Source of the DNA: an uncultured Marivita sp. | GTDB taxonomy: Bacteria; Pseudomonadota; Alphaproteobacteria; Rhodobacterales; Rhodobacteraceae | Assembly (NCBI RefSeq): GCF_947488135.1 | Contig: NZ_CANKYW010000001.1 | Span: 868,001-932,000, forward strand | Direction of reading: 5' to 3' | Length of the DNA: 64,000 nucleotides | In this document: in pieces, positions 19,204 through 41,005 of the stretch | Numbering within the stretch: position 1 is the first letter of the stretch | Layout of the letters: the number at the start of each line of letters is the position of its first letter | Program-made: the position numbers and the translations under genes | Notes under the pieces: model-generated | Seen by the model: the letters and a program-made list of their open reading frames with translations, nothing else | Database searches by the model: none | What the model was told of the DNA's origin: nothing

Positions 19204-20235
19204 TCAGACCGATTCCGGCGTGTAAAGCAGTGGCTCAAACAGTCTCGGTTGCGCTTGCGCGGGTGGGCCGTCCACCGCCGCTCGGACCATCCGATCCACC
19301 AGCGCACGACACAAATCGCTCAGCGGCGTGGCGCTGACCAGAATGGCATAGTGATCTGCCAGCGCGGCACGGCTCTCTGACGTGAGTTCGTTGACGATCA
19401 GGGCGACCTTGCCCGGAGGACGCGCTTCGCGCAGCGCGGCGATTGCGCCTTCCATGCCGCCCCCGGCCACATACAACCCGGCGAGGTCCGCATGGCGCTC
19501 CAACAGGTCCAGCGTCGCCTCGTACGTCACTTGCCGCGTTTCGAGGTTCACGGCGGTGTCGGTCACGGTGATCTGCGGAGCGTATTCCCGAAGGGCAGTC
19601 CGGAACCCGGCTTCGCGAAGCCCGTGGCCATGCCACCGCGCGCCGCCGACGAACACGGCAACCCGGCAGGGACGCTGGAGATGGGTGGCCATCATCCAGC
19701 CCGCGATGCGACCGGCCTTCATGTTGTCGAGACCGAAATACCCGGCTCCGGCTTGCCCGGCAAAATCGTTGAGAAGCGAAAACACCGGCCTGCCGCGCGC
19801 CTTCAGGGTTTCAATGAGCCGGGACAGGGATGGGTGGTTGATCGCGGTCGCTGCCACCACCTGACCATCCGCCGCCGCGGCCTCGATCGCCTCGGTGAAA
19901 TCACCGGGCGATTGCGATGGAGAGAAGTTGATGAAGGGCGTGACAGTGGCATCCGGCACGGCGCGGCAGGCGCGGGTGATCTCTTGCGCGAAGCGTTGGT
20001 AGAACTCCTGCGAGGGTTTGTGGAGCACGAATCCCAGATCCAATCGCGGCTTGCTGGCATCGCTCAGCGACGCGACCGCGCCGGGCATCGGATAGCCGAT
20101 CCGCAAGGCCGCCTCGGCAATCGCCTTCGCGGTGCGCGCCGACACGTTGCCCCGGTCGTTCAGCGCCCGATCCACGGTTGCGGTCCCGACACCGGCGGCC
20201 CGTGCAAGATCCTGAATGGTGGGCCTGCGGGCCAT
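19204..20235 (-). CDS. LacI family transcriptional regulator (sugar-binding type)
   Basis: This 343-residue repressor has an N-terminal LacI helix-turn-helix (TIQDLARAAGVGTATVDRALN) and a periplasmic-binding-protein-like core. It is a clear paralogue of the regulator at 28952-29980: both carry a VGG(A/N)RWHGH segment and NLETRQVTYEATL, and long stretches such as YVAGGGMEGAI are shared. It is divergent from the mocD-like gene, and a TTGATG...CATCAA element lies between them, so it probably controls mocDE and itself. The start is supported by GGAGGAG just upstream. Confidence 0.9.
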   Translation of the reverse strand: MARRPTIQDLARAAGVGTATVDRALNDRGNVSARTAKAIAEAALRIGYPMPGAVASLSDASKPRLDLGFVLHKPSQEFYQRFAQEITRACRAVPDATVTPFINFSPSQSPGDFTEAIEAAAADGQVVAATAINHPSLSRLIETLKARGRPVFSLLNDFAGQAGAGYFGLDNMKAGRIAGWMMATHLQRPCRVAVFVGGARWHGHGLREAGFRTALREYAPQITVTDTAVNLETRQVTYEATLDLLERHADLAGLYVAGGGMEGAIAALREARPPGKVALIVNELTSESRAALADHYAILVSATPLSDLCRALVDRMVRAAVDGPPAQAQPRLFEPLLYTPESV

Positions 20236-20379: not shown

Positions 20380-21459
20380 ATGGCGACACGCGATTATTCT
20401 CTGCTCGGGCCGAACGCCCGACAGGCCGTGGACACCGGCCTCGCCGCGGCGGAGTGGTATCACACCGACATCCCCCGCGCCCGGATGAAGGATCTGATGA
20501 AACGCACCGACCAGCCCGCCATCCGCGACACGGCAATCCTCTTTGCGTGCATGGCTCTGTTCGCCGGCATCGGCATCGCGCTTTGGCCGTCGTGGTGGAG
20601 CGCACCGTTCTGGCTGGCCTATGGCATGCTCTACGGGTCCGCGATGGATTCCCGCTGGCACGAATGCTCCCACGGCACGGCCTTCAAGACACGGCCCTAC
20701 AACGACTGGCTCTACCAGGTCGCGAGCTTTTGCATGGTGCGCAATCCGGTCTCCTGGCGCTGGAGCCACGCGCGTCATCACACCGACACGATCATCGTCG
20801 GTCGCGACCCCGAGATCGTCGCCATGCGGCCCCCGGCCTTGTTCCGGATCGTGATGAATGTCTTTGGCATCTTCGACGCCTGGCACGGCTGGACGCGGAT
20901 GCTCTACAACGCGTCGGGTCGTATCCACCCCGAAGAGGCGGCGTATATCCCCGAACAGGAACAACCCAAGGTGATCCGTGTCGCGCGCATCTGGGTGGCG
21001 ATCTATGCCGCGACCATCGCCCTTGCGCTGGCTCTGGGGTCGATGCTGCCCCTGATGGTGATCGGACTGCCCCGGCTCTACGGCGCATGGCACCATGTCC
21101 TGACCGGTCTCATGCAGCACGCCGGTCTGGCGGAAAACGTCACCGACCACCGGCTGAACTCGCGCACCGTCTACATCAACCCGATCTCGCGCTTCATCTA
21201 CTGGAACATGAACTACCACGTAGAGCATCACATGTTCCCGATGGTGCCCTATCACCGCCTGCCTGATCTGCACGACGCGATCAAACACGATCTGCCCCCG
21301 GCCAATACCTCCATGTGGGAGGCCTATGCCGAGATCATTCCCGTTCTGCGCCGCCAACTGGCCTATGAGGACGTGTTCCTGAAACGCGACCTGCCTGCGA
21401 CGGCCAAACCCTACCGCGAAGATTTCCACAGCGCGGCCCTTGGCACCGCTGCCGAGTGA
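20380..21459 (+). CDS. mocD: Fatty-acid-desaturase-like oxygenase, MocD type
   Basis: This 359-residue membrane di-iron protein has the three histidine clusters of the desaturase/alkane-hydroxylase superfamily: HECSH at 94-98, HARHH at 130-134 and HVEHH near 283. Hydrophobic helices surround residues 50-90 and 195-215. With the MocE-like Rieske ferredoxin next door it resembles the rhizopine catabolism pair MocD/MocE, which is implicated in O-demethylating 3-O-methyl-scyllo-inosamine. The surrounding inositol genes support a cyclitol substrate, but desaturation of a lipid is not excluded. The start follows a strong GGAGGGGG. Confidence 0.75.
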   Translation: MATRDYSLLGPNARQAVDTGLAAAEWYHTDIPRARMKDLMKRTDQPAIRDTAILFACMALFAGIGIALWPSWWSAPFWLAYGMLYGSAMDSRWHECSHGTAFKTRPYNDWLYQVASFCMVRNPVSWRWSHARHHTDTIIVGRDPEIVAMRPPALFRIVMNVFGIFDAWHGWTRMLYNASGRIHPEEAAYIPEQEQPKVIRVARIWVAIYAATIALALALGSMLPLMVIGLPRLYGAWHHVLTGLMQHAGLAENVTDHRLNSRTVYINPISRFIYWNMNYHVEHHMFPMVPYHRLPDLHDAIKHDLPPANTSMWEAYAEIIPVLRRQLAYEDVFLKRDLPATAKPYREDFHSAALGTAAE

Positions 21460-21494
21460 CCGACCGCAAACCTGCCCAATAGAAAGGACCCGGC

Positions 21495-21803
21495 ATGCCC
21501 TGGATCGACGCCTGCGCGACCGACGATATCGACCAAGAAGACCTCATCCGCTTCGACCATGACGGCCGCACCTTTGCGATCTACCACAGCCCGGACGGCA
21601 CCTTTTTCTGCACCGACGGCCTGTGTACCCACGAACAGGTGCATCTCGAGGACGGGCTGGTGATGGACTACGAGATCGAATGTCCCAAGCACAACGCGAC
21701 CTTCGATTACCGCACCGGCGAAGCCAAGCGCGCTCCGGCCTGCGTGAACCTGAACACCTACGAAACGAAGGTAGAAGGCGGTCGGGTTTTCATCGCTGTT
21801 TGA
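21495..21803 (+). CDS. mocE: MocE family Rieske [2Fe-2S] ferredoxin
   Basis: This 102-residue soluble ferredoxin has the Rieske cluster ligands Cys44-x-His46 and Cys63-x2-His66 in CTHEQVH and CPKHNATFD. It would deliver electrons to the di-iron oxygenase encoded 35 bp upstream. MocE of rhizopine-degrading rhizobia has the same role. A reductase partner (MocF) is not in this window. AAAGGA precedes the start codon. Confidence 0.88.
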   Translation: MPWIDACATDDIDQEDLIRFDHDGRTFAIYHSPDGTFFCTDGLCTHEQVHLEDGLVMDYEIECPKHNATFDYRTGEAKRAPACVNLNTYETKVEGGRVFIAV

Positions 21804-21842
21804 CGGGCGGGGCGGCGCCACGCTTGCCCAAATCCGCGCCGA

Positions 21843-22667
21843 TCACCTCAACCCCCCGATCACCTCGCGGGCCTTTTGTGTCAAAGGGTCTTCGACCGCC
21901 GACAGGATCGCGATGCGGTCGAAGGCATCCGGCTTTGCGTCCAATGTCTGACGCAAGGCGGTGCCGAAGGCCATGCGCAGCTCGGTGCCGATATTGAACT
22001 TGCAGATCGCGCTCGTCCCGGCAAGCGAACGGCGCAAGGCGTGGGACAGGCCCGAGCCGCCGTGGATCACCAGGGGCACGTCCGTGGCGGCCTCGATCCG
22101 GGAGAGCCGTCCGCGGTCGATCTGCGCGGAGTGGTCGGTTTGCTGATGCACATTGCCGACAGAGACCGCCATCGCGTCGACGCCGGTGTCTCGTGCGAAC
22201 CGTGCGGCCTCGTTCGGGTCCGTGCCCTCAGAGGCTGCACCTTCACTGTAGCCGACAAAGCCGATCTCGCCTTCGCAGGACACGCCTGCCGCATGGGCCA
22301 TCTCGACGATCGCGCGGGTTTGGCGGATATTCTCGTCCAGTGGCAAACGTGACCCGTCGAACATGACCGACGTGAATCCCAGCGCGATGGCCTCTTCGCA
22401 CTCGGCCACACTGGTCCCGTGGTCCAGATGCGACACGACCGGAACCGATGCCGCATCCGCCAGCGCGTGAAACATCGCCGCCCAGACGGGCAGGGGCATA
22501 TGCGCCCGCGCGCCCGGACCGGCTTGCAGGATCACCGGCGCGCCTTCGGCCTCGGCGGCGGCCACATAGGCGCGGGCGTCCTCCCAGCCAAGACAGACCA
22601 ACCCGGCAACGGCGTACCCCTCCCGCAACGCGGGGCGCAGAACCTCGGCCAGCGTCGCGCGGGTCAT
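21843..22667 (-). CDS. Class II aldolase (fructose/tagatose-bisphosphate or IolJ-like)
   Basis: This 274-residue TIM-barrel aldolase shows the class II zinc and phosphate motifs VVSHLDHGT near residue 78, CEGEIGFVGY near 130, LVIHGGSGLS near 200 and KFNIGTELR near 223. IolJ, which cleaves 6-phospho-5-dehydro-2-deoxygluconate to DHAP and malonate semialdehyde, belongs here. Being the last gene after a PfkB kinase and an IolB-like isomerase, an IolJ-like reaction is likely. Its ATG overlaps the iolB-like stop. The main iol operon instead carries a DUF2090 aldolase domain fused to IolC. Confidence 0.82.
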   Translation of the reverse strand: MTRATLAEVLRPALREGYAVAGLVCLGWEDARAYVAAAEAEGAPVILQAGPGARAHMPLPVWAAMFHALADAASVPVVSHLDHGTSVAECEEAIALGFTSVMFDGSRLPLDENIRQTRAIVEMAHAAGVSCEGEIGFVGYSEGAASEGTDPNEAARFARDTGVDAMAVSVGNVHQQTDHSAQIDRGRLSRIEAATDVPLVIHGGSGLSHALRRSLAGTSAICKFNIGTELRMAFGTALRQTLDAKPDAFDRIAILSAVEDPLTQKAREVIGGLR

Positions 22668-23503
22668 TTGAACTTGGCCACCATGTCCATGATGCCGGGG
22701 ATCGTGTGCAGCTGTTCCGCGTGGGTCGGTTGGAAATACTGCTTGAGCGACCGCTGCGACAACCCGCCGAGGATGGTGAAGTAATACATCTCGTACCCCG
22801 GCAGAACGCAGCAGGGGTGATAGCCCTTGTCGATCAGAACCGTCGATCCGTTCATCACGTGATAGGCGTCGCCCGGTTCGTTGTCCTCGCGCTGGAGCAT
22901 CTGGAGGCCCGAGCCGTAATCCGGCTTGAACCGGAAGTTGTAGGTCTCGTCATGCCGCGTCTCGTCCGGCAGGCGATCCGTGTCGTGCTTGTGCGACGGA
23001 AACCCGGACCAGCCGCCCGCGCCGACGGTGAACAACTCCGACACCAGCAGGCGGCCCACCCGGTCATGATGGTTCGCGCCGAGGATGTGCTTGATCTTGC
23101 GATGGGTCTTGGTGTCGTCGCTGCCGTATTGCACCAGGTCCAGATCGTCCTTGCGGACCGCAAAGGGCGTCAGGGTGGTGTCGAACTTTGCACCGGCGAT
23201 GAACACTTCAGTGTCCGTCCGCGCCGTGATCCGCGCGCCTGTCCCCGTGGGGACATAGACGCCCTCGGGGTCGCCATCCCACACATCCGCGCCGCGATGG
23301 CCGATATCGGCAAAGGTCTCGCCGCCAGTTTCCACGGTCACGGTCCCGGTCGCGGGCACGATGCAGGTCTCGTAGCCGTCAAGCTGGTACGCGTAGCTTT
23401 CACCCGCCGTCAGCTTTACGATGTTGAAGTAATTGAGCGGCACCAGCGGGTGATCGACATCGACGATGGGCTGATTGGCGTTGTCATAGGGGGGGATGTG
23501 CAT
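22664..23503 (-). CDS. 5-deoxy-glucuronate isomerase family protein (divergent IolB paralogue)
   Basis: This 279-residue bicupin belongs to the IolB/KduI family. Metal-binding histidines are visible in GFPSHKHDTD near residue 172 and in KGYHPCC near 240, with the YEMYYF motif after. It differs clearly from the canonical IolB at 41006-41812, so it may act on a related but different deoxy-uronate. It lies between the PfkB kinase and the aldolase in one transcription unit, preceded by CAGGAGG. Confidence 0.82.
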   Translation of the reverse strand: MHIPPYDNANQPIVDVDHPLVPLNYFNIVKLTAGESYAYQLDGYETCIVPATGTVTVETGGETFADIGHRGADVWDGDPEGVYVPTGTGARITARTDTEVFIAGAKFDTTLTPFAVRKDDLDLVQYGSDDTKTHRKIKHILGANHHDRVGRLLVSELFTVGAGGWSGFPSHKHDTDRLPDETRHDETYNFRFKPDYGSGLQMLQREDNEPGDAYHVMNGSTVLIDKGYHPCCVLPGYEMYYFTILGGLSQRSLKQYFQPTHAEQLHTIPGIMDMVAKFK

Positions 23504-23514
23504 GGGGCCTCCTG

Positions 23515-24492
23515 TCAGGCTGGGCGCATTTTGGCATGCGCCATGAAATCGGTCAGGGCATCTTGGGTCGGCATGGCCGGGGCGCAGCCGACACGGGCCA
23601 CCACCATTGCAGCCGCAGCGGACCCCTGGCGCACCGCGTCCGCGACGGGCTGGCCGTCCGACAGGGCGGCAAGGAACCCTGCCATGAAACTGTCCCCGGC
23701 ACCCGTGGGCTTCAGGGCGTCGGTCTCGAAGATACCGGTGCGCGTTTCGCCCTCGGGGGTAATGGTGATCGCGCCCTTTTCGCCCATCTTGTAGATGACG
23801 ATCTGCGCACCCTCGGCCAGCAGGGCTCGCGCTTTATCGAGGCCCTGGCCCTTGGCGCCCGCCATGAAGTCGAACTCCACATCGTTGCCGATCACGATGT
23901 CACAGAGAGCCGCCGCGCGGGAATAGACCTTCGAGGCTTCCTCTGCAGAGGTCCAGGAATAGGGGCGGTAATCGACGTCGAAGATGATCGGCAGTCCCGC
24001 TTTCTGCGCGCGGTCAAAGGCATGGAACGTGGCGCTGCGCGACGGCTCTGCGGCCAGAACCGTGCCGGTTGTGACGAGCGCGGAGAACCCGTGATAGGGC
24101 AGCGCCTCGACGTCCTGCGTGGTCATGGCGAAATCGGCGGCATTGTTGCGGTAGATGACCGATTGGGTGTCTTCGAGCCTTGTTTCCACAACTGCCAGCG
24201 AATTGCGGGCCTCGCCCGCGACCGACCGGACGAAGCGCCGGTCGATCCCGTAAAGGTCGAGCTGTTTCAGGCAAAAGCGCCCCACCGCGTCGTCGGACAC
24301 GCATGTGACCAGCGCCGCGTCGCACCCCAGACGGCACAGACCGGCGGCAATATTGGCCGACGATCCCCCCAGCGCGGCGGTGAACTCCGTGGCCTCCTCC
24401 AACCGGGTTCCCGGTGGATGCGCATAAAGGTCCATCCCGGCACGGCCGATGACGAGGAACCCTTTGCCTTTGAGACGGTCCAGATTTTTCAT
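23515..24492 (-). CDS. PfkB family sugar kinase (5-dehydro-2-deoxygluconokinase-like)
   Basis: This 325-residue ribokinase-family enzyme has the N-terminal LGGSSANIAAG motif near residue 35 and the ATP-site/catalytic GAGDSFMAG near 265. It lacks the DUF2090 domain that is fused to the other IolC in this window. Position before the IolB-like and aldolase genes suggests it phosphorylates a 2-deoxy-keto-acid. I chose the ATG at 24492 because AAGG lies five bases upstream; an ATG four codons earlier (24504) has no such site. Its promoter faces the dehydrogenase at 24576. Confidence 0.85.
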   Translation of the reverse strand: MKNLDRLKGKGFLVIGRAGMDLYAHPPGTRLEEATEFTAALGGSSANIAAGLCRLGCDAALVTCVSDDAVGRFCLKQLDLYGIDRRFVRSVAGEARNSLAVVETRLEDTQSVIYRNNAADFAMTTQDVEALPYHGFSALVTTGTVLAAEPSRSATFHAFDRAQKAGLPIIFDVDYRPYSWTSAEEASKVYSRAAALCDIVIGNDVEFDFMAGAKGQGLDKARALLAEGAQIVIYKMGEKGAITITPEGETRTGIFETDALKPTGAGDSFMAGFLAALSDGQPVADAVRQGSAAAAMVVARVGCAPAMPTQDALTDFMAHAKMRPA

Positions 24493-24510
24493 GTGCGCCT
24501 TCATTTTGAG

Positions 24511-24539
24511 TTGCACGGGTTTTGCGCTGACGATACAGA
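24511..24539 (+). promoter_or_regulatory. Possible sigma-70-like promoter for the dehydrogenase operon
   Basis: TTGCAC at 24511-24516 and TACAGA at 24534-24539 are 17 bp apart on the plus strand, reasonable -35 and -10 elements. The LacI-type palindrome begins three bases after the -10, so repressor binding would cover the expected transcription start. The -10 match is weak, so the call is tentative. Confidence 0.35.
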
Positions 24540-24541
24540 TT

Positions 24542-24557
24542 TTGCAACCGGTTGCAA
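24542..24557. promoter_or_regulatory. LacI-type operator in the kinase/dehydrogenase divergent promoter
   Basis: TTGCAACCGGTTGCAA is a perfect 16-bp palindrome with a central CG, the classical shape of a LacI/GalR-family operator. It lies in the 83-bp gap between the divergent kinase (23515) and Gfo/Idh (24576) genes. The same arms recur at 28853-28870, in front of the LacI gene at 27805-28803, which is therefore the likely regulator of both directions. Confidence 0.75.
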
Positions 24558-24575
24558 GATGCGGGGAGGAACCAC

Positions 24576-25694
24576 ATGGCCGAGATCGGAATCGGGATCG
24601 TCGGGGGCGGCTACATGGGCAAGGCACATGCCGTTGCCATGGCCTCGGTCGCGACGGTGTTCGACACGCCCCTGCGCCCGCGCCTCGAGATGATCGCGGC
24701 CTCCAGCGCCGAAAGCGCCGAGCGGTATCGCAAATCCTTCGGCTTCAACCGCGCCGCACCCGACTGGCAGGCTCTGGTGGAAGATCCCAAGGTCGAGGCG
24801 GTGGTGATTGCCTCACCGCAGGACACACACCGCCCCATCGCCGAAGCCGCCATCGCGCTGGGCAAACCGGTGCTCTGTGAAAAGCCGCTTGCCGACTCGC
24901 TCGAGGACTCGCGCGCGATGGTGGCGGCGGCAGAGGCGGAGGGCGTGGTGAACATGGTCGGCTTCAACTACATCCGCACCCCCGCCAGCCAGTTCGTCCG
25001 GCACCTGCTGGCCGAGGGCACCATCGGCGATGTCACCTGGTTCCGCTGCGAGCATACCGAGGATTTCCTCTCCGACCCCGCGACCCCGTTCAACTGGCGC
25101 TGTACCGGACAGGCCAATGGCAACATGGGCGATCTGGCCCCGCACCCGATCAACGCGGCGCTGGCGATGATGGGGCCGATCGCCAAGGTCTGTGCCGATC
25201 TCGAAACCGTACATCTCGACCGTACGGGCGGTACGGTCGACAATGATGATCACGCCCAGATCATGTGCCGCTTTTCCTCCGGCGTCATGGGCCACATCTA
25301 TTCAAGTCGCATCGCGACAGGTCGCAAGATGGGCTACGCCTATGAAATCACGGGCACAAAGGGCGCGATCCGCTTCGATCAGGAGGATCAGAACGCGGTC
25401 TGGCTCTACCTCGCCGAAGGGCCCGAGGCGACCCGCGGCTTTCGCAAAATCCTCACCGGCCCCGCCCACCCCGACTACCTGCCGTTTTGCCAGGGGCCGG
25501 GGCATGGCACGGGCTACCAGGACCAGATCATCATAGAGGCCAAGGATTTCCTCACCGCGATCCATACCGGCAAGGCGCTCTGGCCGACCTTCCGCGACGG
25601 GCTCGAGGTGGCCGAGGTGATCGAGGCCATCCACGCCTCAGCCGCGCGCGGCGGTTGGGTGCCCGTCAGCGAGTTTCAGGAGACCACAGCATGA
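24576..25694 (+). CDS. Gfo/Idh/MocA family oxidoreductase
   Basis: This 372-residue NAD(P)-dependent dehydrogenase has the Rossmann motif GGGYMGKAHA near residue 9 and the catalytic-lysine signature CEKPLA near residue 104. Family members oxidise inositols, inosamines and other polyols. It is the first gene of a plus-strand operon followed by an IolE/MocC-like protein (ATGA overlap) and a second Gfo/Idh enzyme, so the unit probably oxidises and dehydrates a cyclitol derivative. GGGGAGGA precedes the chosen ATG. Confidence 0.88.
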   Translation: MAEIGIGIVGGGYMGKAHAVAMASVATVFDTPLRPRLEMIAASSAESAERYRKSFGFNRAAPDWQALVEDPKVEAVVIASPQDTHRPIAEAAIALGKPVLCEKPLADSLEDSRAMVAAAEAEGVVNMVGFNYIRTPASQFVRHLLAEGTIGDVTWFRCEHTEDFLSDPATPFNWRCTGQANGNMGDLAPHPINAALAMMGPIAKVCADLETVHLDRTGGTVDNDDHAQIMCRFSSGVMGHIYSSRIATGRKMGYAYEITGTKGAIRFDQEDQNAVWLYLAEGPEATRGFRKILTGPAHPDYLPFCQGPGHGTGYQDQIIIEAKDFLTAIHTGKALWPTFRDGLEVAEVIEAIHASAARGGWVPVSEFQETTA

Positions 25695-26581
25695 CCATTC
25701 GCATCGGCAATGCCCCCTGTTCCTGGGGCGTGGAATTCGCGGCCGATCCCCGCAACCCGCCCTGGCGGCAGGTGCTCAAGGAGTGCGCCGAGGCGGGCTA
25801 TACGGGGATCGAGTTGGGACCGGTCGGGTTCATGCCCGAAGACCCGGCGGAGCTGGGCGAGGCGCTGTCCGAACACGGGCTGGAGCTGATCGGAGGGGTG
25901 GTGTTCCGGCCCTTTCACGACGCGTCCAAATGGGACGACGTTCTCGATGGGGCGACCCGCACGGCGAAGGCGCTTGCCGCACATGGGGCGGAACATTTCG
26001 TTCTGATCGACTCGATTTCGCCCCGCCGCGCACCGACCGCAGGCCGCGCCGACGAGGCCGAGCAGATGGACGCGGACGAGTGGCGCGCCTTCGTGCAGCG
26101 CATTGAAACCGCGGCAAAAATCGGCGCTGAGGAGTACGGGCTGACGGCCTCCATCCATGCCCATGCAGGTGGGTTCGTGGACTTTGAGCCGGAGCTGGAG
26201 CGGCTCTTAAACGAGGTCGATCCGGCGCTCCTGAAGATCTGTTTCGACACCGGGCACCATTCCTATGCCGGGTTCGATCCGGTGGCGTTCATGCAGCGCC
26301 ACATGGACCGGATCTCCTACATGCATTTCAAGGACATCGACCCGGCGGTCAAAGCGCAGGTCGTCGCCAACCGCACCGATTTCTATGAGGCGTGCGGACA
26401 AGGTATCTTCTGCAATCTGGGGCAGGGCGATGTCGATTTTCCGGCGGTGCGGCACGTGCTTGTTGAGTCGGGTTTCGAAGGCTGGTGCACGGTCGAGCAG
26501 GATTGCGATCCAACGTTGGACGTGCGGCCCATCGACGACGCGCGCGCCAATCGGGCGTATCTTGGGTCCATCGGCTTCTGA
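25691..26581 (+). CDS. Sugar phosphate isomerase/epimerase, IolE/MocC-like
   Basis: This 296-residue AP endonuclease family 2 TIM barrel resembles inosose dehydratase (IolE) and the rhizopine protein MocC. The N-terminus RIGNAPCSWGVEF is the IolE-type opening, and metal-site residues occur in ICFDTGHHSYAG near residue 180 and YMHFKDIDP near 210. It probably dehydrates an inosose-like intermediate made by the adjacent dehydrogenases. It is distinct from the iolE at 38792, so this is a second copy of the function. Confidence 0.85.
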   Translation: MTIRIGNAPCSWGVEFAADPRNPPWRQVLKECAEAGYTGIELGPVGFMPEDPAELGEALSEHGLELIGGVVFRPFHDASKWDDVLDGATRTAKALAAHGAEHFVLIDSISPRRAPTAGRADEAEQMDADEWRAFVQRIETAAKIGAEEYGLTASIHAHAGGFVDFEPELERLLNEVDPALLKICFDTGHHSYAGFDPVAFMQRHMDRISYMHFKDIDPAVKAQVVANRTDFYEACGQGIFCNLGQGDVDFPAVRHVLVESGFEGWCTVEQDCDPTLDVRPIDDARANRAYLGSIGF

Positions 26582-26630
26582 CCGACGGGGTCAGACGACG
26601 GCACAGGTTTTTCACGAAAGGACAAGCAGA

Positions 26631-27791
26631 ATGGCAAAGCTTCGGTGGGGCATGATCGGCGGCGGCGAAGGCAGCCAGATCGGCCCGGCGCACCGTTTGG
26701 GCGCGGGGCTCGACGGGCATTTCGAGTTCACGGCCGGTGCGCTGGATCACCGCCCGGAGGCCGGGCGCGACTATGGCACGCGGCTCGGGCTGGCGGCGGA
26801 TCGCGCCTATGGCGACTGGCGCGAGATGCTCGAGGGCGAGCGGGGGCGCGACGACCGGATCGAGCTGGTGACCGTTGCCACACCGAACGCCACCCATTTC
26901 GAGATCACCAAGGCGTTTCTCGAAGCCGGGTTCCACGTGCTCTGCGAAAAGCCGATGACCATGACCGTGGATGAGGGCGAAGAGATCGTGCGCCTGTCGA
27001 AGTCTACCGGGCGCATCTGCGCGGTGAATTATGGCTATACCGGCTACAGCCTTGTCCGTCACATGCGGGCGATGGTGGCGCGCGGCGATCTCGGGCGCAT
27101 CCGGGTGGTGAAGGCCGAATTCGCCCACGGGCACCACGCCAACGCCGCCGATGCCGACAATCCCCGTGTGCGCTGGCGCTACGATCCGGCGCAGGCCGGG
27201 GTCAGCGCGCAATTCGCCGATTGCGGGATCCATGCCCTGCACATGGCAAGCTTCGTTATCGGCCAAGAGGTCGAACGGCTGAGCGCCGACACGGTCAGCT
27301 GCATCGAAAGCCGGGTTCTGGAAGACGACGCGATGCTGAACCTGCGCTTCGATGGTGGGACGGTCGGGCGGCTCTGGACGTCTTCGATCGCGGTTGGCAA
27401 CCAGCATGGCCTGACGCTTCAGGTTTTCGGGGAAAAGGGCGGTTTGCGCTGGGCGCAGGAACAGCCGAACCAATTGTACTGGATGCCGCTGGGCGAACGT
27501 TTGCAGGTGATCGAACGGGGCGAGGCGAACCTGTCGCCCGAAGCGGACCGCACCAGCCGCGTCACCATCGGCCATGCCGAAGGGATGCCGCTGGCTTTTG
27601 CGAACATCTACGCCGATCTGGCCGAAGCGATCCGCGCCGAGAAAGAGGGCCGCGCCATGGACCCGGCGGCGAACCTTTATCCCCGTGCTGAGGACGGGCT
27701 GCGGTCGATGGCCGCGGTGTTTGCGGTGGCCGAAAGCGGTAAGTCCTATGGTGCCTGGGTCGAGGCGCGCCCGCCGATGTTCCGAGGATAA
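26631..27791 (+). CDS. Gfo/Idh/MocA family oxidoreductase
   Basis: This 386-residue dehydrogenase has the variant Rossmann motif GGGEGSQIGPAHR near residue 9 and CEKPMT near residue 105. The (G)GEGS opening separates it from the other two Gfo/Idh proteins in the window, so it likely handles a different substrate or step. It follows the IolE-like gene by 49 bp in the same operon and converges on the lacI-like gene with 13 bp between stops. Confidence 0.87.
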   Translation: MAKLRWGMIGGGEGSQIGPAHRLGAGLDGHFEFTAGALDHRPEAGRDYGTRLGLAADRAYGDWREMLEGERGRDDRIELVTVATPNATHFEITKAFLEAGFHVLCEKPMTMTVDEGEEIVRLSKSTGRICAVNYGYTGYSLVRHMRAMVARGDLGRIRVVKAEFAHGHHANAADADNPRVRWRYDPAQAGVSAQFADCGIHALHMASFVIGQEVERLSADTVSCIESRVLEDDAMLNLRFDGGTVGRLWTSSIAVGNQHGLTLQVFGEKGGLRWAQEQPNQLYWMPLGERLQVIERGEANLSPEADRTSRVTIGHAEGMPLAFANIYADLAEAIRAEKEGRAMDPAANLYPRAEDGLRSMAAVFAVAESGKSYGAWVEARPPMFRG

Positions 27792-27804
27792 ACCGGATCG
27801 CGCG

Positions 27805-28803
27805 TCAGAGCCGCGCGCGCAATGTTTTGCGCTCCACCAATGTGCAGGGCAGCAGCACCATTTGTGGCGGCGTCGAGGGCGTCTCGATTCCCTGTCGGAT
27901 CAGGTCGACGGAGGTGGCCACGATCTGACGCACGGGCTGGCGGATCGTGGTCAGGCTGATGCGGTCCCACCCGGCCATTTCCATGTCGTTCAGACCGATC
28001 AGCCCCAAATCGTCGGGAATGGACCGCCCGGCAGCCCGTGCTGCGTCCATCGCGCCGATGGCAATGACGTCGTCGCCGCAGAACCACGCCTCGACCTCTG
28101 GCGCCGTGGCAAGCGCGCGGCTCATGGCGACACGCCCGGCCTCGTAGGAATAGGCTGCGGCGAACTGGACCTCGGGCGCGATCCCGTGTGTGGTCAACTC
28201 GGCCTGAAAGCCGGTCAGCCGGTCGCTTGTCGTCGACGCGCTTTGCGGCCCGCCCAGAAAGCCGACCCGCCGATAGCCGCGTTCCATCAGGGTGAGTGCC
28301 GCGAGATGGCCCGCCTCGCGGTTGTCGATGCTGACCCGCGCGGTTTGCGGTGTGTCTGATGACCAGCCAAAGGCGTGAACCACCGGGAGGCCCGCGTCGT
28401 GGAACACCTTGGCAAAGCCGGGGGGCAGGGTCGATGAGGCGACGATCACCCCGTCCACGTTGTATTGCCGGAGCATCGCCAGGGACTTGGCTGCATCCTC
28501 CTCGGCGCTCAGGTTGATCAGAAGTGGCCGCAGCGCCGCCTTTTGCAGCGCGCGGGTGAAGTGGTCGAAAATTTCAAGAAAATAGGGGTTGGTGAAATTG
28601 TTGGAGATCAGCCCGACCAAGGTCGTGCGTCCCGTCGTCAGGCTGGAGGCCAGAACGTTCGGATAATAGCCCAGTTCCTGTGCCGCGGCTTCGACCTTGG
28701 CACGGGTCTTGGCCGACACGGACGCGCCGGGTGTGAAGGTGCGGGACACGGCGGATTTCGACACGCCTGCGCGGGCTGCGACGTCCTGAAGGGTGATGGG
28801 CAT
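27805..28803 (-). CDS. LacI family transcriptional regulator
   Basis: This 332-residue repressor starts with a classic LacI HTH (TLQDVAARAGVSKSAVSRTF), the hinge helix region YYPNVLASSL, and a sugar-binding core with VGFLGGPQSASTTSDRL. It is more typical of GntR/CcpA-like LacI proteins than the other two in the window. An operator palindrome (28853-28870) lies 50 bp upstream of its ATG and matches the one at 24542-24557, so it probably represses itself and the kinase/dehydrogenase promoters. AAAAGGAAA precedes the start. Confidence 0.92.
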   Translation of the reverse strand: MPITLQDVAARAGVSKSAVSRTFTPGASVSAKTRAKVEAAAQELGYYPNVLASSLTTGRTTLVGLISNNFTNPYFLEIFDHFTRALQKAALRPLLINLSAEEDAAKSLAMLRQYNVDGVIVASSTLPPGFAKVFHDAGLPVVHAFGWSSDTPQTARVSIDNREAGHLAALTLMERGYRRVGFLGGPQSASTTSDRLTGFQAELTTHGIAPEVQFAAAYSYEAGRVAMSRALATAPEVEAWFCGDDVIAIGAMDAARAAGRSIPDDLGLIGLNDMEMAGWDRISLTTIRQPVRQIVATSVDLIRQGIETPSTPPQMVLLPCTLVERKTLRARL

Positions 28804-28852: not shown

Positions 28853-28870
28853 TTTGCAACAGGTTGCAAA
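28853..28870. promoter_or_regulatory. LacI-type operator upstream of the lacI-like gene
   Basis: TTTGCAACAGGTTGCAAA has perfect 8-bp arms around a central AG. The arms (TTGCAAC/GTTGCAA) are identical to those of the palindrome at 24542-24557, which differs only in its central CG. Position in front of the regulator gene suggests autoregulation. Confidence 0.72.
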
Positions 28871-28905: not shown

Positions 28906-28922
28906 CATCATTCGTGATGATG
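28906..28922. promoter_or_regulatory. CATCAT/ATGATG inverted repeat upstream of second LacI-type gene
   Basis: CATCAT-N5-ATGATG is an inverted repeat 29 bp before the start codon at 28952. Related elements occur at 29977-29997 (ATGATG-N9-CATCAT) and 30015-30028 (CATCAT-N2-ATGATG), on the other side of the same regulator gene. The set suggests binding by that regulator, although the simple repeat could also arise by chance. Confidence 0.42.
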
Positions 28923-28951: not shown

Positions 28952-29980
28952 ATGGCGCGCAGAGCAACGATCAAGGACGTGGCCCTTGTGTCCGGCTTGA
29001 GCACGGCGACGATTGACCGGGCATTGAACGGCCGGGCCAAGGTCCGCGAAGAAACCTTGCGCAAGATCGCCGATGCGGCGCGGGAGGTCGGCTACCACGC
29101 GCGCGGATTGCTGGAGCACCGGCTGGATGCGTCTGTGCCCGAACTCAAAATCGGGGTGCTGCTCCTGAAAGAAAAGCAACCGTTCTACCAGGCCTTTCGA
29201 AGCGAGATCGAACGCGCCATCGCAGCGCGGACCGACATTCGCGGCAAGGTCACGATCCGGTTTGCAAACTCGCAATCCCCCACGGAATTTGCCGACCTTT
29301 TGCAACGGTTGGGAGAGGTGTCGGACGCGGTCGCCGCCGTCGCCGTCAATCACCAAAGCCTTGATAAGGTGGTGTCTGACCTCAAGGCGAAGGATGTGCC
29401 GGTGTTTTCCCTTCTCAATGACTTCGCGCAGGGAATTCGGCGCAGTTACATAGGGTTGAACAACATGAAGGTCGGCCGGCAGGCGGCCTGGATGCTCACG
29501 CAGACGGCGACGCCGGGGCGCCTGGCGATTTTTGTCGGCGGCAATCGATGGCATGGTCACGACCTGCGCGAAGTCGGCTTCCGGGCTTTCATGCGAGAGA
29601 ACGGCCCGGGGTTCGAAACACTGGAAACCCTGGTGAATCTCGAGACACGGCAGGTCACTTACGAGGCGACGTTGAGCCTGTTGGAGCGGTATCCCGATCT
29701 GCGCGGCATCTACGTGGCCGGAGGCGGTATGGAAGGTGCGATAACTGCTCTGCGAGAGGTGCGCCCACCGGGCAAAGTCCGTCTGATCGTCAACGAAGTA
29801 ACGGCCGACAGCCGAGCCGGGCTTTTGGATGGATATGTCCAGATGGCCATTGTCACGCCGCTTGCGGAGGTGTGCCAAAGCTTGATCACGCTTGCGATCA
29901 AGGCGTGCTCTGATCCGGCGTCTTCGTCGGTCGAGCAGCATTTTCTCGACCCACGGATCATCCTTCCGGAAATTCTATGA
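28952..29980 (+). CDS. LacI family transcriptional regulator, probable regulator of the inositol operon
   Basis: This 342-residue regulator has the HTH TIKDVALVSGLSTATIDRALN and a ligand-binding core. It is paralogous to the regulator at 19204-20235. It lies directly upstream of the IolI-like gene and the ABC importer on the same strand, and CATCAT/ATGATG inverted repeats flank it on both sides. I infer control of the myo-inositol operon. The ATG at 28952 follows GGAGG. Confidence 0.9.
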   Translation: MARRATIKDVALVSGLSTATIDRALNGRAKVREETLRKIADAAREVGYHARGLLEHRLDASVPELKIGVLLLKEKQPFYQAFRSEIERAIAARTDIRGKVTIRFANSQSPTEFADLLQRLGEVSDAVAAVAVNHQSLDKVVSDLKAKDVPVFSLLNDFAQGIRRSYIGLNNMKVGRQAAWMLTQTATPGRLAIFVGGNRWHGHDLREVGFRAFMRENGPGFETLETLVNLETRQVTYEATLSLLERYPDLRGIYVAGGGMEGAITALREVRPPGKVRLIVNEVTADSRAGLLDGYVQMAIVTPLAEVCQSLITLAIKACSDPASSSVEQHFLDPRIILPEIL

Positions 29981-30028
29981 TGAGGTAAAAGCATCATTGT
30001 GAGGCGAGATAAAGCATCATTGATGATG
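29977..30028. promoter_or_regulatory. Tandem GCATCATTG elements upstream of the inositol operon
   Basis: GCATCATTG occurs twice in direct orientation (29991-29999 and 30014-30022), 23 bp apart. The second copy is part of the inverted repeat CATCATTGATGATG at 30015-30028. ATGATG at 29977-29982 pairs with CATCAT at 29992-29997. The cluster lies 96 to 147 bp before the IolI-like start codon and resembles the element in front of the preceding LacI-type gene. Confidence 0.45.
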
Positions 30029-30123
30029 TGAAATGCGCCGCTTGCTGTTGACGGAATCACTCCACCCGGACACTTCTTACGCTACGTTAAGATTGGCGAA
30101 GCATTTGGGAGGATGTGATCGTG

Positions 30124-30939
30124 ATGAAACGTGCGCTCAATCACATGACCGTGCCCACGCTTGGCTACGAGGCGTTTCTCGATCTGGCGGCATCTTTGGA
30201 CTGCGTTGGTGTGGAAGTCCGCAACGATCTGACGCGTTCCTTGTTCGATGGTATGACGGCGCAGGCGGCAGGAGAGATGGCCCGGGACAAGGGTCTCCGG
30301 CTGGTCGGGCTAAGCCAGGTCTACCCGTTCAACAGCTGGTCCGACGATATCCTTAAGGAGGTCCGCGATCTCATCACCACTGCGAAATCTTCTGGGGCCG
30401 AGACCATCAGTCTGATCCCGCGCAATGACGGCACGCAAACCGGCAATGGCGAACGGCACGCCAACCTGCGGATCGCGCTCAAGAATATCAAGCCGATGGT
30501 CGAAGACGCGGGTTTGGTCGCGCTGATCGAACCCTTGGGCTTCGCCCGCTCGTCCCTGCGATCAAAGCTGGAAACGGTGGAGACCATCGCGGCGCTGGAT
30601 GCGAAGCATGTGTTCAAGATCGTGCACGACACGTTTCATCACACGCTCGCGGGGGGCGGGGCGATGTTTCCGGCGCAGACGGGCATCGTGCATATCTCGG
30701 GTGTCACCGATCCGACGCTGGGCATCGACCAGATGGAGGACGCGGATCGCGTTCTGGTCGATGAGCGGGATCGGCTTGGGAATGTCGATCAAATCCGTGC
30801 CTTGCTGAAAGCAGGATATGATGGGCCGATTTCCTACGAGTGCTTTTCGCCCGAAATCCACGCCTTGGCGGAACCGCAAGCGGCGATCCGCAAATCGTTC
30901 GAATTCATTTCTTCGCAGCTTGCGGCGGAAGCCGCCTGA
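30124..30939 (+). CDS. TIM-barrel isomerase, IolI-like (inosose isomerase family)
   Basis: This 271-residue AP endonuclease 2-type TIM barrel resembles IolI (2-keto-myo-inositol isomerase): metal-site residues appear in VALIEPLGF near residue 139, KIVHDTFHHTLAGG near 163 and VHISGVTD near 188, with a C-terminal ISYECFSPE. It precedes the ABC importer genes, in keeping with inosose interconversion. GGGAGG lies 11 bases before the ATG at 30124; GTG codons at 30121 and 30115 are alternatives. Confidence 0.8.
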   Translation: MKRALNHMTVPTLGYEAFLDLAASLDCVGVEVRNDLTRSLFDGMTAQAAGEMARDKGLRLVGLSQVYPFNSWSDDILKEVRDLITTAKSSGAETISLIPRNDGTQTGNGERHANLRIALKNIKPMVEDAGLVALIEPLGFARSSLRSKLETVETIAALDAKHVFKIVHDTFHHTLAGGGAMFPAQTGIVHISGVTDPTLGIDQMEDADRVLVDERDRLGNVDQIRALLKAGYDGPISYECFSPEIHALAEPQAAIRKSFEFISSQLAAEAA

Positions 30940-31012
30940 GTGAAGGGCAACGCCCCTTGGGGGCTCCGGCGAAAAACGGGTGTGCCGGCACCAATTTGGG
31001 AGGACTAAACCA

Positions 31013-31957
31013 ATGAAAAAAACCTTGATCGCAGCCGGGCTCGCCGCCCTCATGTCGACGACCGCGATGGCCGAAACCATCGGCGCGTCGATCGCACGCT
31101 TCGACGACAATTTCCTGACCGTCATGCGCAACGGCATGGTGGAATATGCCGAAGGGATCGACGGCGTCGATCTACAGGTCGAAGATGCACAGGACGATGT
31201 GGCCAAGCAGCTTGACCAGATCAACAACTTCATCGCATCCGGCGTGGACGCGATCATCGTGAACGCGGTGGACACTTCGGCGACCGACGCGATGTCACAG
31301 GCCGCCGCCGATGCCGGAATCCCCTTGGTCTATGTCAATCGCCAACCGATCAACGTGGACAACCTGCCGGACAACCAGGCGTTCGTGGCATCGAACGAGA
31401 TCGAATCCGGCACTCTCGCGGCGTTCGAGGCCTGCAAGATGCTGCGCGCGATGGGTCACGCAGGGGGTGCGCAGGGCTATCTTATGATGGGCCAGCTGTC
31501 GAACCAGGCCGCCGTTCAGCGGACCAAGGATGTCGATGATGTGCTGGGCATGGATATGTGCAACTTCATCACGATCGTTGACCGTCAGACTGCGAACTGG
31601 TCGCGCGATGAGGCGCAGGATCTGATGACCAACTGGCTGTCTTCCGGCGAAGAGTTCCAGGTCGTGTTCGCGAACAACGACGAAATGGCCATCGGTGCGA
31701 TCCAGGCGATGAAGGCCAACGGGATCTCGATGGAAGACGTTGTCGTGGTGGGTGTTGATGCCACCCAAGACGCGCTGGTCGCGATGCAGGCTGGCGATCT
31801 CGATGCCACGGTGTTCCAGGATGCCTTCGGTCAGGGCGAAGGCTCGGTCGATGCGGCGCTGGCGCTCGCTCGTGGAGAGGACGTCGATCAGAAGGTCTAC
31901 ATTCCGTTCAAGCTGGTCACTCCCGCCAACCTGGACGACTTCATCGACCGCAACTGA
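31013..31957 (+). CDS. Sugar ABC transporter substrate-binding protein (probable inositol-binding)
   Basis: This 314-residue periplasmic protein has a Sec signal peptide with likely cleavage after TAMA (residue 21) and a peripla_BP_4-type core: IGASIARFDDNFLTVMRNG, then VDAIIVNAVDTSATD, then VVFANNDEMAIGAIQAM. This is the ribose/inositol-binding family (IbpA-like). The permease and ATPase follow, and the iol catabolic genes come next, so myo-inositol or a relative is the likely ligand. A stable hairpin follows its stop codon. Confidence 0.88.
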   Translation: MKKTLIAAGLAALMSTTAMAETIGASIARFDDNFLTVMRNGMVEYAEGIDGVDLQVEDAQDDVAKQLDQINNFIASGVDAIIVNAVDTSATDAMSQAAADAGIPLVYVNRQPINVDNLPDNQAFVASNEIESGTLAAFEACKMLRAMGHAGGAQGYLMMGQLSNQAAVQRTKDVDDVLGMDMCNFITIVDRQTANWSRDEAQDLMTNWLSSGEEFQVVFANNDEMAIGAIQAMKANGISMEDVVVVGVDATQDALVAMQAGDLDATVFQDAFGQGEGSVDAALALARGEDVDQKVYIPFKLVTPANLDDFIDRN

Positions 31958-31973
31958 TTGCGGTTCGAAGAAG

Positions 31974-32002
31974 CGGGTAGGGCGCGATGCGTGCCCTGCC
32001 CG
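31974..32002 (+). terminator. Intercistronic hairpin between binding-protein and permease genes
   Basis: CGGGTAGGGC (31974-31983) pairs with GCCCTGCCCG (31993-32002) with one G-U wobble, and the stem extends inward to a three-base loop. No T-run follows. Such hairpins after binding-protein genes usually protect the upstream mRNA or partly terminate, giving more binding protein than permease. Confidence 0.6.
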
Positions 32003-32058
32003 AAACCACGTATCCTGCCCGCAACGGGCGCAGATCAGATCGATCAGGAGTGTCACAG

Positions 32059-33141
32059 ATGGCGGAGATAACGCACGGGACCGGCGGGCTGAAATACGAC
32101 AACTCGAAGCGCAGCTGGCCGAACGAAGTCAACATTTTCATCGCGCTGGTGATCATCGTCGCGATCTTCGAAATCCTGGGGCAAGTCCTGCCCTACATGA
32201 ACGGGCAGAGTTTCCTGTTCGACACGAACGACCGGTTCGATTCCATATTCAATGAAGCGCGACTGCGGATCATCATCCTTCAAGTCGCGATCATCGGGAT
32301 CATCTCGCTTGGCGTGACGCAGGTGATCATCTCGGGCGGGATCGACCTGTCCTCGGGTCCGCTGGTGGCGGCGACGGCGATGATCGTCATGTCCTTCGCG
32401 CAGACGGAGTTGGTCAACGGCAACCCGAACCCGAAAGCGGTGTTCGGTCCCTGGGCCTTTGATCTGCCGGTCATCATTCCGATCCTCGTGGGGCTGGCTT
32501 TTGGTGCTTTCATTGGGTCGATTAACGGGATGTTCATCGCCTTCACCCGCATCCCGCCTTTCATCGCGACGCTGGGCATGTTCCTGATCTGCCGCGGCAT
32601 CGCGCAGTGGTGGACTCGGGGGCAGCCGGTGTCCTTTCCGACCGAAAGCTACGCCGCTCTGGGCGCGGGTATGATGCCGGTGGTGTGGTTCGTTCTGCTG
32701 GCCATCCTGTGCCACGTGCTTCTGCGCTACACAGTCTATGGCAAGCACACCTATGCCATCGGATCGAACGAGGACGCGGCGCGCATGTCGGGGATCAACG
32801 TGAAGCGGCACAAGGTCATGGTCTACATGATCGCGTCGATGTTGGCGGCGTTCGCGGCCATCATCCTGAGCTCCAAAAACCTGACGGCGCAATCCGGTAT
32901 GGGGCTGTTCTACGAGCTTTACGCCATCGCCATGGCCGTGATCGGCGGGGTCAGCCTGACCGGCGGGCGTGGGTCGATCATCGGGACGGTGCTGGGAGCG
33001 ATGGTCTTCGGCGTGATCCAATCCGGGTTCACCTATGTGAAGCTCGATGCGTATTTTCAGATCATGGCCATGGGCGCGATTATCATCAGCGCGGTCGTTC
33101 TCGACAAATGGCGTCAGCAACGCGCCATGATGCGGTCATAG
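32059..33141 (+). CDS. Sugar ABC transporter permease (probable inositol permease)
   Basis: This 360-residue membrane protein of the RbsC/branched-chain permease class shows ISLGVTQVIISGGIDLSSGP near residue 95, then FIATLGMFLICRGIAQ and IGGVSLTGGRGSIIGTVLGA. The N-terminal 20 residues are cytoplasmic and polar. AGGAG lies eight bases upstream of the ATG. A homodimer would complete the importer with the ATPase 12 bp downstream. Confidence 0.92.
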   Translation: MAEITHGTGGLKYDNSKRSWPNEVNIFIALVIIVAIFEILGQVLPYMNGQSFLFDTNDRFDSIFNEARLRIIILQVAIIGIISLGVTQVIISGGIDLSSGPLVAATAMIVMSFAQTELVNGNPNPKAVFGPWAFDLPVIIPILVGLAFGAFIGSINGMFIAFTRIPPFIATLGMFLICRGIAQWWTRGQPVSFPTESYAALGAGMMPVVWFVLLAILCHVLLRYTVYGKHTYAIGSNEDAARMSGINVKRHKVMVYMIASMLAAFAAIILSSKNLTAQSGMGLFYELYAIAMAVIGGVSLTGGRGSIIGTVLGAMVFGVIQSGFTYVKLDAYFQIMAMGAIIISAVVLDKWRQQRAMMRS

Positions 33142-33153
33142 GGAGGGGCGATC

Positions 33154-33933
33154 ATGTCGGATATCATTCTGGAAACACGGAACCTGACCAAACATTACGG
33201 CGGGGTGCACGCCCTTCAGGACGCAACCTTCACCTTGCGCAAGGGCGAACACGTGGCGATCATGGGGGACAACGGCGCGGGGAAATCCACCTTTGTCCGG
33301 CAGATCACCGGGGTCGAACAGCCCACGCGCGGAGAGATATACTTCGACGGTAAACCGGTGCATTTCGCGGGCCCGCTCGATGCGCGAGAGGCCGGGATCG
33401 AAGCGGTGTTCCAAACCCTTGCGCTGGCCGATGACCTCGACGTGTCGGACAACCTGTTTCTCGGGCGCGAGAAAACGAAGTTCGATTGGCTTGGCCCGTT
33501 TCGGTTGCTCGATTACAAGGCGATGCGGCAGGACACGATCGCCGCGTTGGAGAAGACGGCGGTCAAGATCCCCAACATCCGCAACACGATCCAGAACATG
33601 TCCGGGGGTCAGCGCCAATGTGTGGCCATCGCGCGCACGGCGACGTTCCACTCCAAGCTGACGATCATGGACGAACCCACGGCGGCGTTGGGTGTGCAGG
33701 AAACGGCGCAGGTCGAGAACATCATCCGAACGCTGAAAGAGCAGGGAGAGCCTTTGATCCTGATCAGCCACAACATGCGGCAGGTGATGGATCTTGTGGA
33801 TCGGATCGTCGTGTTCCGCCGGGGCCGGATCTGCGCCAACCTGCGCAAGGAAGACACGGATGGGCAGGACGTCGTGGCCTATATCACAGGGGCGAAGACC
33901 CAGCCGGAATACGATGTCGAGGATGTTGCCTAA
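33154..33933 (+). CDS. Sugar ABC transporter ATP-binding protein, single domain
   Basis: This 259-residue ATPase has Walker A GDNGAGKST near residue 37, signature MSGGQRQCVAIART near 149 and Walker B LTIMDEPTAAL near 170. It contains a single nucleotide-binding domain, unlike the fused double ATPases (RbsA type; compare 57822-59333) common in this importer class. It resembles FrcA-type subunits of alphaproteobacterial sugar importers. iolG follows after 111 bp that include a hairpin. Confidence 0.92.
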   Translation: MSDIILETRNLTKHYGGVHALQDATFTLRKGEHVAIMGDNGAGKSTFVRQITGVEQPTRGEIYFDGKPVHFAGPLDAREAGIEAVFQTLALADDLDVSDNLFLGREKTKFDWLGPFRLLDYKAMRQDTIAALEKTAVKIPNIRNTIQNMSGGQRQCVAIARTATFHSKLTIMDEPTAALGVQETAQVENIIRTLKEQGEPLILISHNMRQVMDLVDRIVVFRRGRICANLRKEDTDGQDVVAYITGAKTQPEYDVEDVA

Positions 33934-34007
33934 TCCAACGGCCCCGCGCATAGCGGTGCCATTGCAGGAGCCGCATTGTCGGCTTCGCTGACCATCACAC
34001 TCAAAGA

Positions 34008-34027
34008 CCCGCGCGGGAAGGCGCGGG
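34008..34027 (+). other. Small intercistronic hairpin before iolG
   Basis: CCCGCGC (34008-34014) and GCGCGGG (34021-34027) form a perfect 7-bp GC stem with a six-base loop, followed by GAAAAGGAAG, which holds the iolG ribosome site. It could separate transporter and catabolic transcripts by processing; no T-run is present. Confidence 0.45.
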
Positions 34028-34044
34028 CGCGAAAAGGAAGTCCC

Positions 34045-40935: not shown

Positions 40936-41005
40936 TCCGCGCTTTCCCTCAAACAAGGCCGGGGCAACCCTGTGGCTGCCTCGGCTTCGAACAAGGACGG
41001 ACATA

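Follow-up and report, generated by a model that had tools for sequence, protein, structure and literature searches.

The 64,000-nucleotide stretch of DNA analysed here (the window) belongs to a 4.47-Mb genome of an uncultured Marivita sp. and holds three inositol-related units within positions 19204-41812. These are mocD-mocE with the regulator gene of LacI_A, an inositol-type catabolic module with LacI_B, and the main iol operon with LacI_C. The module (21843-28803) comprises the minus-strand genes aldJ-iolB2-iolC2, the plus-strand genes gfoA-iolE2-gfoB, and the gene of LacI_B. Comparison with relatives indicates that it is probably an alternative ("type-2") inositol operon of the Rhodobacterales in shortened form, which would depend on IolD1, the ring-opening enzyme encoded in the neighbouring main iol operon.

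An initial annotation of the window had proposed a second inositol-type module, a proposal that is supported, and all genes named in it were recovered as open reading frames at the positions given below. IolC2 (23515..24492, minus strand), a 5-dehydro-2-deoxygluconokinase of the PfkB type, passed the IolC model TIGR04382 with 337 bits (cut-off, 300). IolB2 (22664..23503, minus strand) is a divergent 5-deoxy-glucuronate isomerase of family PF04962 (267 bits). AldJ (21843..22667, minus strand) is a class II aldolase (PF01116) that retains the conserved motifs across the loci and presumably takes the role of IolJ. On the plus strand, IolE2 (25691..26581) is an inosose dehydratase-like triosephosphate isomerase (TIM) barrel (PF01261), and it is flanked by two Gfo/Idh dehydrogenases, the scyllo-inositol dehydrogenase-like GfoA (24576..25694) and GfoB (26631..27791; PF01408). 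IolB2, IolC2, and IolE2 are 29-32% identical to their main-operon counterparts. In IolB2 and IolE2, the motifs that we take to be catalytic are conserved in most aligned rows. The steps of the classical myo-inositol pathway IolGEDBCJ, represented here by the main operon, can also be assigned to the module, which differs in having a single-domain kinase and a class II aldolase in place of the fused IolC1. The earlier statement that every step has a second version is correct at the family level; both Gfo/Idh proteins, however, scored far under the cut-off of the IolG model TIGR04380 (140.8 bits for GfoA and 63.8 bits for GfoB vs. 355).

No iolD lies inside the module. A search of the whole genome at E <= 1e-100 returned one IolD match, IolD1 (36963..38792, plus strand), which was also the sole match above the cut-off of TIGR04377 (909 bits vs. 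715). The single occurrence of IolD at 36963, previously noted for the window, was thus borne out genome-wide. This IolD is encoded in the adjacent main iol operon. Borrowing of the enzyme, one of two options raised initially, is the most likely solution for the module.

A gene-neighbourhood search, as suggested in the initial annotation, was run with IolB2 as the bait. The named relatives are the best 80 loci of a longer list, and the annotated loci were taken from plasmid records. The presence of iolD was classed for 77 of them, the incomplete loci L060, L065, and L109 being set aside (L065 holds part of iolD2 near its end). The gene layout across the relatives revealed a stable core, and the window's module has the arrangement by which we define type-2 synteny: gfoB-gfoA divergent from iolC2-iolB2-aldJ, with LacI_B and the operator TTGCAACCGGTTGCAA. 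The type-2 operons of Ruegeria sp. TM1040, Marinovum algicola, and Rhizobium sp. WL3 have the same core genes, order, divergent layout, and operator as the window. Unlike the window's module, they carry iolD, accompanied by an ATP-binding cassette (ABC) transporter in TM1040 and WL3 and additionally by iolG in TM1040. In these three and in Limimaricola, iolD2 is located between gfoA and iolC2, and a Photobacterium relative (L117) likewise has iolD within the cluster. The iolD2 product of TM1040 is 48% identical to IolD1 over 616 positions. Overall, iolD2 was found upstream of iolC2, and between iolC2 and gfoA where gfoA is present, in 42 of the 77 classed loci and was missing in 35.

To relate the module to the rest of the genome, IolD was searched in 79 of the 80 genomes of the named relatives (L095 was left out), with type-1 IolD defined as at least 61% identical to IolD1 of the window. 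Of the 35 genomes with an iolD-less module, 33 encode a type-1 IolD at another place, compared with 13 of the 41 in which the module carries iolD (Fisher p 1.4e-8, with kinship left out of account). The iolG gene was present behind the module in 19 of the 28 loci that combine module iolD with a genome lacking type-1 IolD, in 3 of the 13 loci with both IolD types, and in none of the 35 loci without module iolD. We read these relatives as pointing to an ancestral operon that would have had iolD and was later shortened. On a tree of 82 loci, the iolD state changed nine times, a count that by itself cannot separate loss from gain. The absence of iolD at several separate places in this tree would also suit the view that the module is a superfluous duplicate that is slowly decaying and serves no particular role, as would the five iolD-less loci in which iolE2 was not found (present in 30 of 35) and the single one in which gfoA was not found (34 of 35). 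We consider such decay unlikely. The conserved motifs and the operator are retained with few exceptions, iolC2 and aldJ occur in all 35 of these loci, and gfoB occurs in 34, the contig of L104 ending before it.

The 16-bp sequence TTGCAACNGGTTGCAA occurs at 24542-24557 and 28854-28869 of the window, where none is expected, and nowhere else in the genome. Thus, the operator that had been noticed as the module's own is real. Both sites are candidate LacI_B operators; the first lies in the divergent iolC2/gfoA promoter, and the second between lacB and lacC, ahead of the main iol operon. In relatives with iolD2, this gene is situated between the divergent-promoter operator and iolC2. The exact 16-mer was detected at the divergent promoter in 72 of 78 loci and a site matching in at least 13 of 16 positions in 76 of 78, in modules with or without iolD; this count excludes L121 and the window, whose own site is exact. 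Within 250 bp upstream of lacB, an operator-like site (at least 13/16) was found in 45 of 70 loci. As a background, 32 of 2400 random 120-bp stretches of the same loci reached 13/16, real sites included. LacI_B (27805..28803, minus strand; PF00356/PF13377), the presumed module regulator, is encoded at the module in 67 of the 77 classed loci, namely in 29 of 35 without and 38 of 42 with iolD.

We extended the comparison to 390 genomes of the order, counting IolB2 at E < 1e-100. IolB2 was present in 187 genomes, of which 122 had a single type-2 IolD, 44 a single type-1 IolD, 20 two or more IolDs, and one none. In 83 of the 122 genomes with a single type-2 IolD, IolB2 was the only IolB (E <= 1e-20); therefore, in many bacteria the type-2 lineage appears to provide the standard route of inositol degradation. 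Sharing between the loci seems sometimes to run in the other direction. Among the 44 IolB2 genomes in which type-1 IolD is the sole IolD found, 24 showed no fused IolC1 (E <= 1e-60). Each of these 24 genomes has exactly one IolC-type kinase (E <= 1e-50), which is encoded beside IolB2 in at least 22 of them (not in G283, and G120 is uncounted) and which in four (G120, G262, G335, and G363) scored slightly under the IolC family cut-off. Because of this pattern, the two loci look like interlocking halves, and in the IolC1-less genomes neither locus provides the full gene set by itself. In G082, from the window's genus, a module without iolD is located on one contig and a main operon without iolC1 on another. 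In G249, the main operon iolG-ABC-iolD1-iolE1-phyH-iolB1 is convergent with aldJ-iolB2-iolC2. The window genome itself retains iolC in both loci. Together, the two operons appear to have become a single interlocked pathway. A more far-reaching version of this idea, which we put forward only tentatively and regard as rather doubtful, is a mutual dependence in which lineages give up either ring opening at one locus or the kinase and aldolase at the other, leaving no locus a pathway by itself. The loci of the window would then be tied by the LacI operator pair, and the lower half (IolB2-IolC2-AldJ) would, with GfoA and GfoB, have been redirected towards another cyclitol, perhaps an O-methyl-inositol supplied through MocDE.

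The dehydrogenases bear on the question of the substrate. The best solved relatives of GfoA are scyllo-inositol dehydrogenase structures with L-glucose dehydrogenase activity (PDB 5ya8, 313 bits), with 160 of 355 aligned positions identical to 5ya8 (45.1%). GfoA keeps 8 of the 10 substrate-site residues of Pl-scyllo-IDH named in PMC5969746, the exchanges being Phe17 to Tyr and Tyr163 to His. The triad K106, D191, and H195 as well as R178 and H318 are all retained in the window's GfoA. Among 80 GfoA rows, K is found in 80, D in 78, H195 in 78, R in 78, and H318 in 77, the remainder being gaps except for one R178 to C exchange. GfoA thus resembles scyllo-inositol dehydrogenase, and the corresponding activity is predicted. 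The same shared substrate-site residues, at 45% identity, relate GfoA to LgdA, the scyllo-inositol/L-glucose dehydrogenase of Paracoccus laeviglucosivorans 43P, from which it differs by the His at position 163. Paracoccus is a member of the same order as the window. According to two reports, lgdA belongs to a putative inositol catabolic cluster (PMC5969746, PMC12632266). The solved chains nearest to GfoB bear only the label "oxidoreductase" and have no assigned function. In the relatives, gfoB falls into two identity classes relative to the GfoB of the window, of about 64-70% and 79-94%. By eye, these classes do not track the presence of iolD, as if the gene had been swapped among operons.

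Position 163, Tyr in Pl-scyllo-IDH, is His in 79 of the 80 GfoA rows and a gap in the remaining one, which would suit a separate pathway for a different cyclitol, one that could be a stereoisomer or carry an O-methyl or amino group. In such a pathway, only ring opening would be shared, and IolB2, IolC2, and AldJ would be private because IolB1 and IolC1 refuse the stereoisomeric open-chain product. The adjoining mocDE genes are consistent with this, and so is the composition of the 35 iolD-less loci: none has iolG in the module, and five lack iolE2, while iolC2 and aldJ are present in all (iolB2 was the bait). Nevertheless, we judge a separate pathway to be possible rather than likely. In 83 genomes, no IolB other than IolB2 was found, and it occurs there with a type-2 IolD; the kinase beside IolB2 is the sole IolC-type kinase in 22 genomes whose only IolD found is type-1. 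Because of these two patterns, enzymes of the IolB2/IolC2 type appear to serve the ordinary route.

Several observations weigh against the module being a shortened type-2 inositol operon served by IolD1. IolB2, although a member of PF04962, scored below the IolB cut-off (TIGR04378, 166 bits vs. 205), and IolE2 below that for IolE (TIGR04379, 187.9 bits vs. 290). Among the relatives with an iolD-less module, L096 encodes, away from the module, only an IolD with 49% identity, and L099, a 2.3-Mb metagenome-assembled genome, has no IolD at E <= 1e-100. Six others (L059, L062, L064, L067, L069, and L084) possess, in addition to type-1 IolD, an IolD of 49-50% identity outside the module. In a test of iolD loss against type-1 IolD that allows for kinship, 2.8 of five supported independent pairs changed in the expected direction and 0.1 against it; with so few informative pairs, this is not significant (median p 0.25). 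The order-wide IolD scoring considered at most three candidates per genome, so additional IolDs may have escaped. Furthermore, 20 of the 24 IolC1-less genomes come from one genus code, g22, the others being G082, G106, G283, and G335. That the window keeps IolB2, IolC2, and AldJ beside IolB1 and IolC1 would also be puzzling if they do the same work.

A last point on this side is genome G253 (100% complete by estimate, 30 contigs), which has the module and the exact operator but in which no IolD exceeded the cut-off of the family. The top-scoring candidate reached 181.6 bits (cut-off, 715), and about 260 bases separate iolC2 from gfoA. G253 is the single case among the 187 that fits the second option raised initially, according to which an acyclic deoxy-uronate is the starting compound of the module and IolD is dispensable. 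Alternatively, the gene may have been missed, a loss from a 30-contig assembly being possible, or the module may be dying. Against acyclic entry, the genes for the dehydrogenases and the dehydratase are mostly retained. Because iolD is part of the module in many relatives (42 of 77) and IolD is found somewhere in 186 of the 187 IolB2 genomes, we rejected acyclic entry as the main explanation and regard it as very improbable.

Taking the module as a shortened type-2 operon, we propose the following course, in which all reactions, the regulation, and the O-demethylation are predicted from the genes, whereas the genes themselves, the lack of iolD2, the single IolD, the operators, and the reciprocal patterns among relatives are seen directly in the sequences. 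The full type-2 form comprises an ABC transporter, LacI_B, gfoB-iolE2-gfoA, the divergent iolD2-iolC2-iolB2-aldJ, and often iolG. In the lineage of the window, the module lacks iolD2, iolG, and the transporter. The remaining enzymes would rely on the neighbouring IolD1. GfoA and/or GfoB would oxidise a cyclitol to an inosose, IolE2 would dehydrate it, and IolD1 would open the ring. IolB2, IolC2, and AldJ would then convert 5-deoxyglucuronate into dihydroxyacetone phosphate and malonate semialdehyde. LacI_B presumably switches the module via the operator at 24542 and, judging from its position, may also act on the main operon via the site at 28854. MocD and MocE, the neighbouring and separately regulated unit, would probably strip O-methyl groups from cyclitols beforehand.

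MocD (20380..21459, plus strand; PF00487) is a membrane di-iron oxygenase of the MocD type and a probable component of a cyclitol O-demethylase. It is 71% identical to a protein of Sinorhizobium meliloti pSymB and 67% identical to MocD of a moc-type cluster on a Rhizobium lentis plasmid. MocE (21495..21803, plus strand) is a Rieske ferredoxin (TIGR02377, 165.6 bits; cut-off, 136.15) with 70% identity to MocE of the same cluster. By analogy with the rhizopine case, MocDE is probably a cyclitol O-demethylase. The Rhizobium lentis cluster comprises genes for a MocR-like regulator, MocB-like and MocA-like proteins, mocDEF, a PanB-like gene, and purU; the names MocA, MocB, MocC, MocF, and MocR are our assignments by family and gene order or position. 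The units listed for rhizopine catabolism are mocDEF, mocR, mocBA, and mocC (PMC10107442). The window shares with them MocD, MocE, and a MocB-like binding protein (62% identity to that of Rhizobium lentis), which would suit a rhizopine (moc) catabolic locus. For GfoA, GfoB, and IolE2, however, identity to the Rhizobium lentis MocA-like and MocC-like proteins is only 24-32%, and a tblastn search with the MocR-like protein gave no match in the window at E <= 1e-5. Orthologs of MocR, MocA, and MocC were not seen in the window, which has LacI regulators instead. On this evidence we rejected the rhizopine reading, which is most improbable; the rhizopine link drawn earlier through MocA and MocC is not supported in that form, although MocD and MocE are close to their counterparts in the Rhizobium lentis cluster.

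The module had also been described as joined to mocDE. The genes are indeed adjacent, although the connection is loose. mocD and mocE, which lie on the strand opposite to aldJ-iolB2-iolC2, are a unit of their own next to the LacI_A gene (19204-20235). MocD was found at E <= 1e-60 in 71 of the 390 genomes and with at least 66% identity, a threshold of our own choice, in 28. These 28 genomes contain type-1 IolD in 27 cases and IolB2 in 21. In the other 43 MocD genomes, type-1 IolD was the best match in 11 (counted by hand), and the link between MocD and type-1 IolD is therefore limited to the close MocD group. Given its own LacI gene and its closer tracking of the main operon, mocDE was rejected as a part of the module. 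Of the 80 named loci, 10 have mocDE close to the module, and nine of these hold a PanB-like gene between mocE and aldJ. The PanB-like gene was not found in the window genome, in a search run without a positive control; tblastn did detect the gene in the nine loci just mentioned.

Across rhizobia and Rhodobacterales, the PanB-like gene adjoins or lies near mocE or a mocF-like gene (L034, L035, L038-L040, L042, L043, L046, L050, L120, L121, and L129), and PF02548 was present in both proteins tested. In Rhizobium lentis it is followed by purU. This gene order suggests, as a guess, that the PanB-like gene and purU handle one-carbon units after O-demethylation. The best candidate reductase for MocE (MocF) is encoded on another contig of the window genome (L126, 9032-10375; G000 contig 2) and is 64% identical to a Marivivens FAD reductase; it lies near a presumably AlkB-like gene, named from its sequence. 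In L133 (G210), the aldolase gene of a type-2 module has as its direct neighbour a mocD-like gene of greater distance (56% identity to Rhizobium lentis MocD).

The main iol operon consists of genes for LacI_C, a TIM barrel, an ABC transporter, IolG1, IolC1, IolD1, IolE1, a PhyH-family dioxygenase, and IolB1, all on the plus strand. LacI_C (28952..29980; PF00356, PF13407) is encoded first and is 50% identical to LacI_A (19204..20235, minus strand; PF00356, PF13407), whose gene is divergent from mocD. The motif CATCA-N4-TGATG, a candidate LacI_C operator, occurs twice in the window (0.10 expected), at 28906..28919 and, before the IolI-like gene, at 30015..30028. No consistent operator emerged when palindromes were sought ahead of mocD. 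The TIM barrel (30115..30939; PF01261) was named IolI-like on position and fold alone. The sugar ABC transporter (30980..33933) consists of binding protein, permease, and ATPase, and its binding protein (30980-31957) is the one resembling the MocB-like protein of the Rhizobium lentis cluster. IolG1 (33976..35049; TIGR04380, 422.5 bits), the fused kinase/aldolase IolC1 (35053..36966; NF047869, 685.8 bits; cut-off, 600), and IolE1 (38789..39697; TIGR04379, 378.3 bits) all passed their models. IolB1 (40985..41812, start approximate) matched PF04962 with 359.8 bits. The PhyH-family dioxygenase (39754..40935; PF05721, 101.7 bits) may be another cyclitol-modifying oxygenase. A relative with 54% identity is encoded beside the type-2 module of Marinovum (L115:13736-14923).

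A literature search found no paper describing the module, which is not proof of absence. The initial suggestion of an undescribed pathway is nevertheless not upheld: the module, whose IolB2 occurs in 187 of 390 genomes, is best taken as a probable abbreviated form of an inositol operon from a second lineage. A genome survey of inositol clusters kept one representative cluster per assembly (PMC9430895), and second clusters therefore drop out of view. In this order, two clusters appear to complete each other, and annotating one of them alone would call the pathway broken or new. The loci offer a clean test case for why some steps of a duplicated pathway become shared and others are kept, and they tie the MocDE oxygenase to inositol loci beyond the rhizobia.

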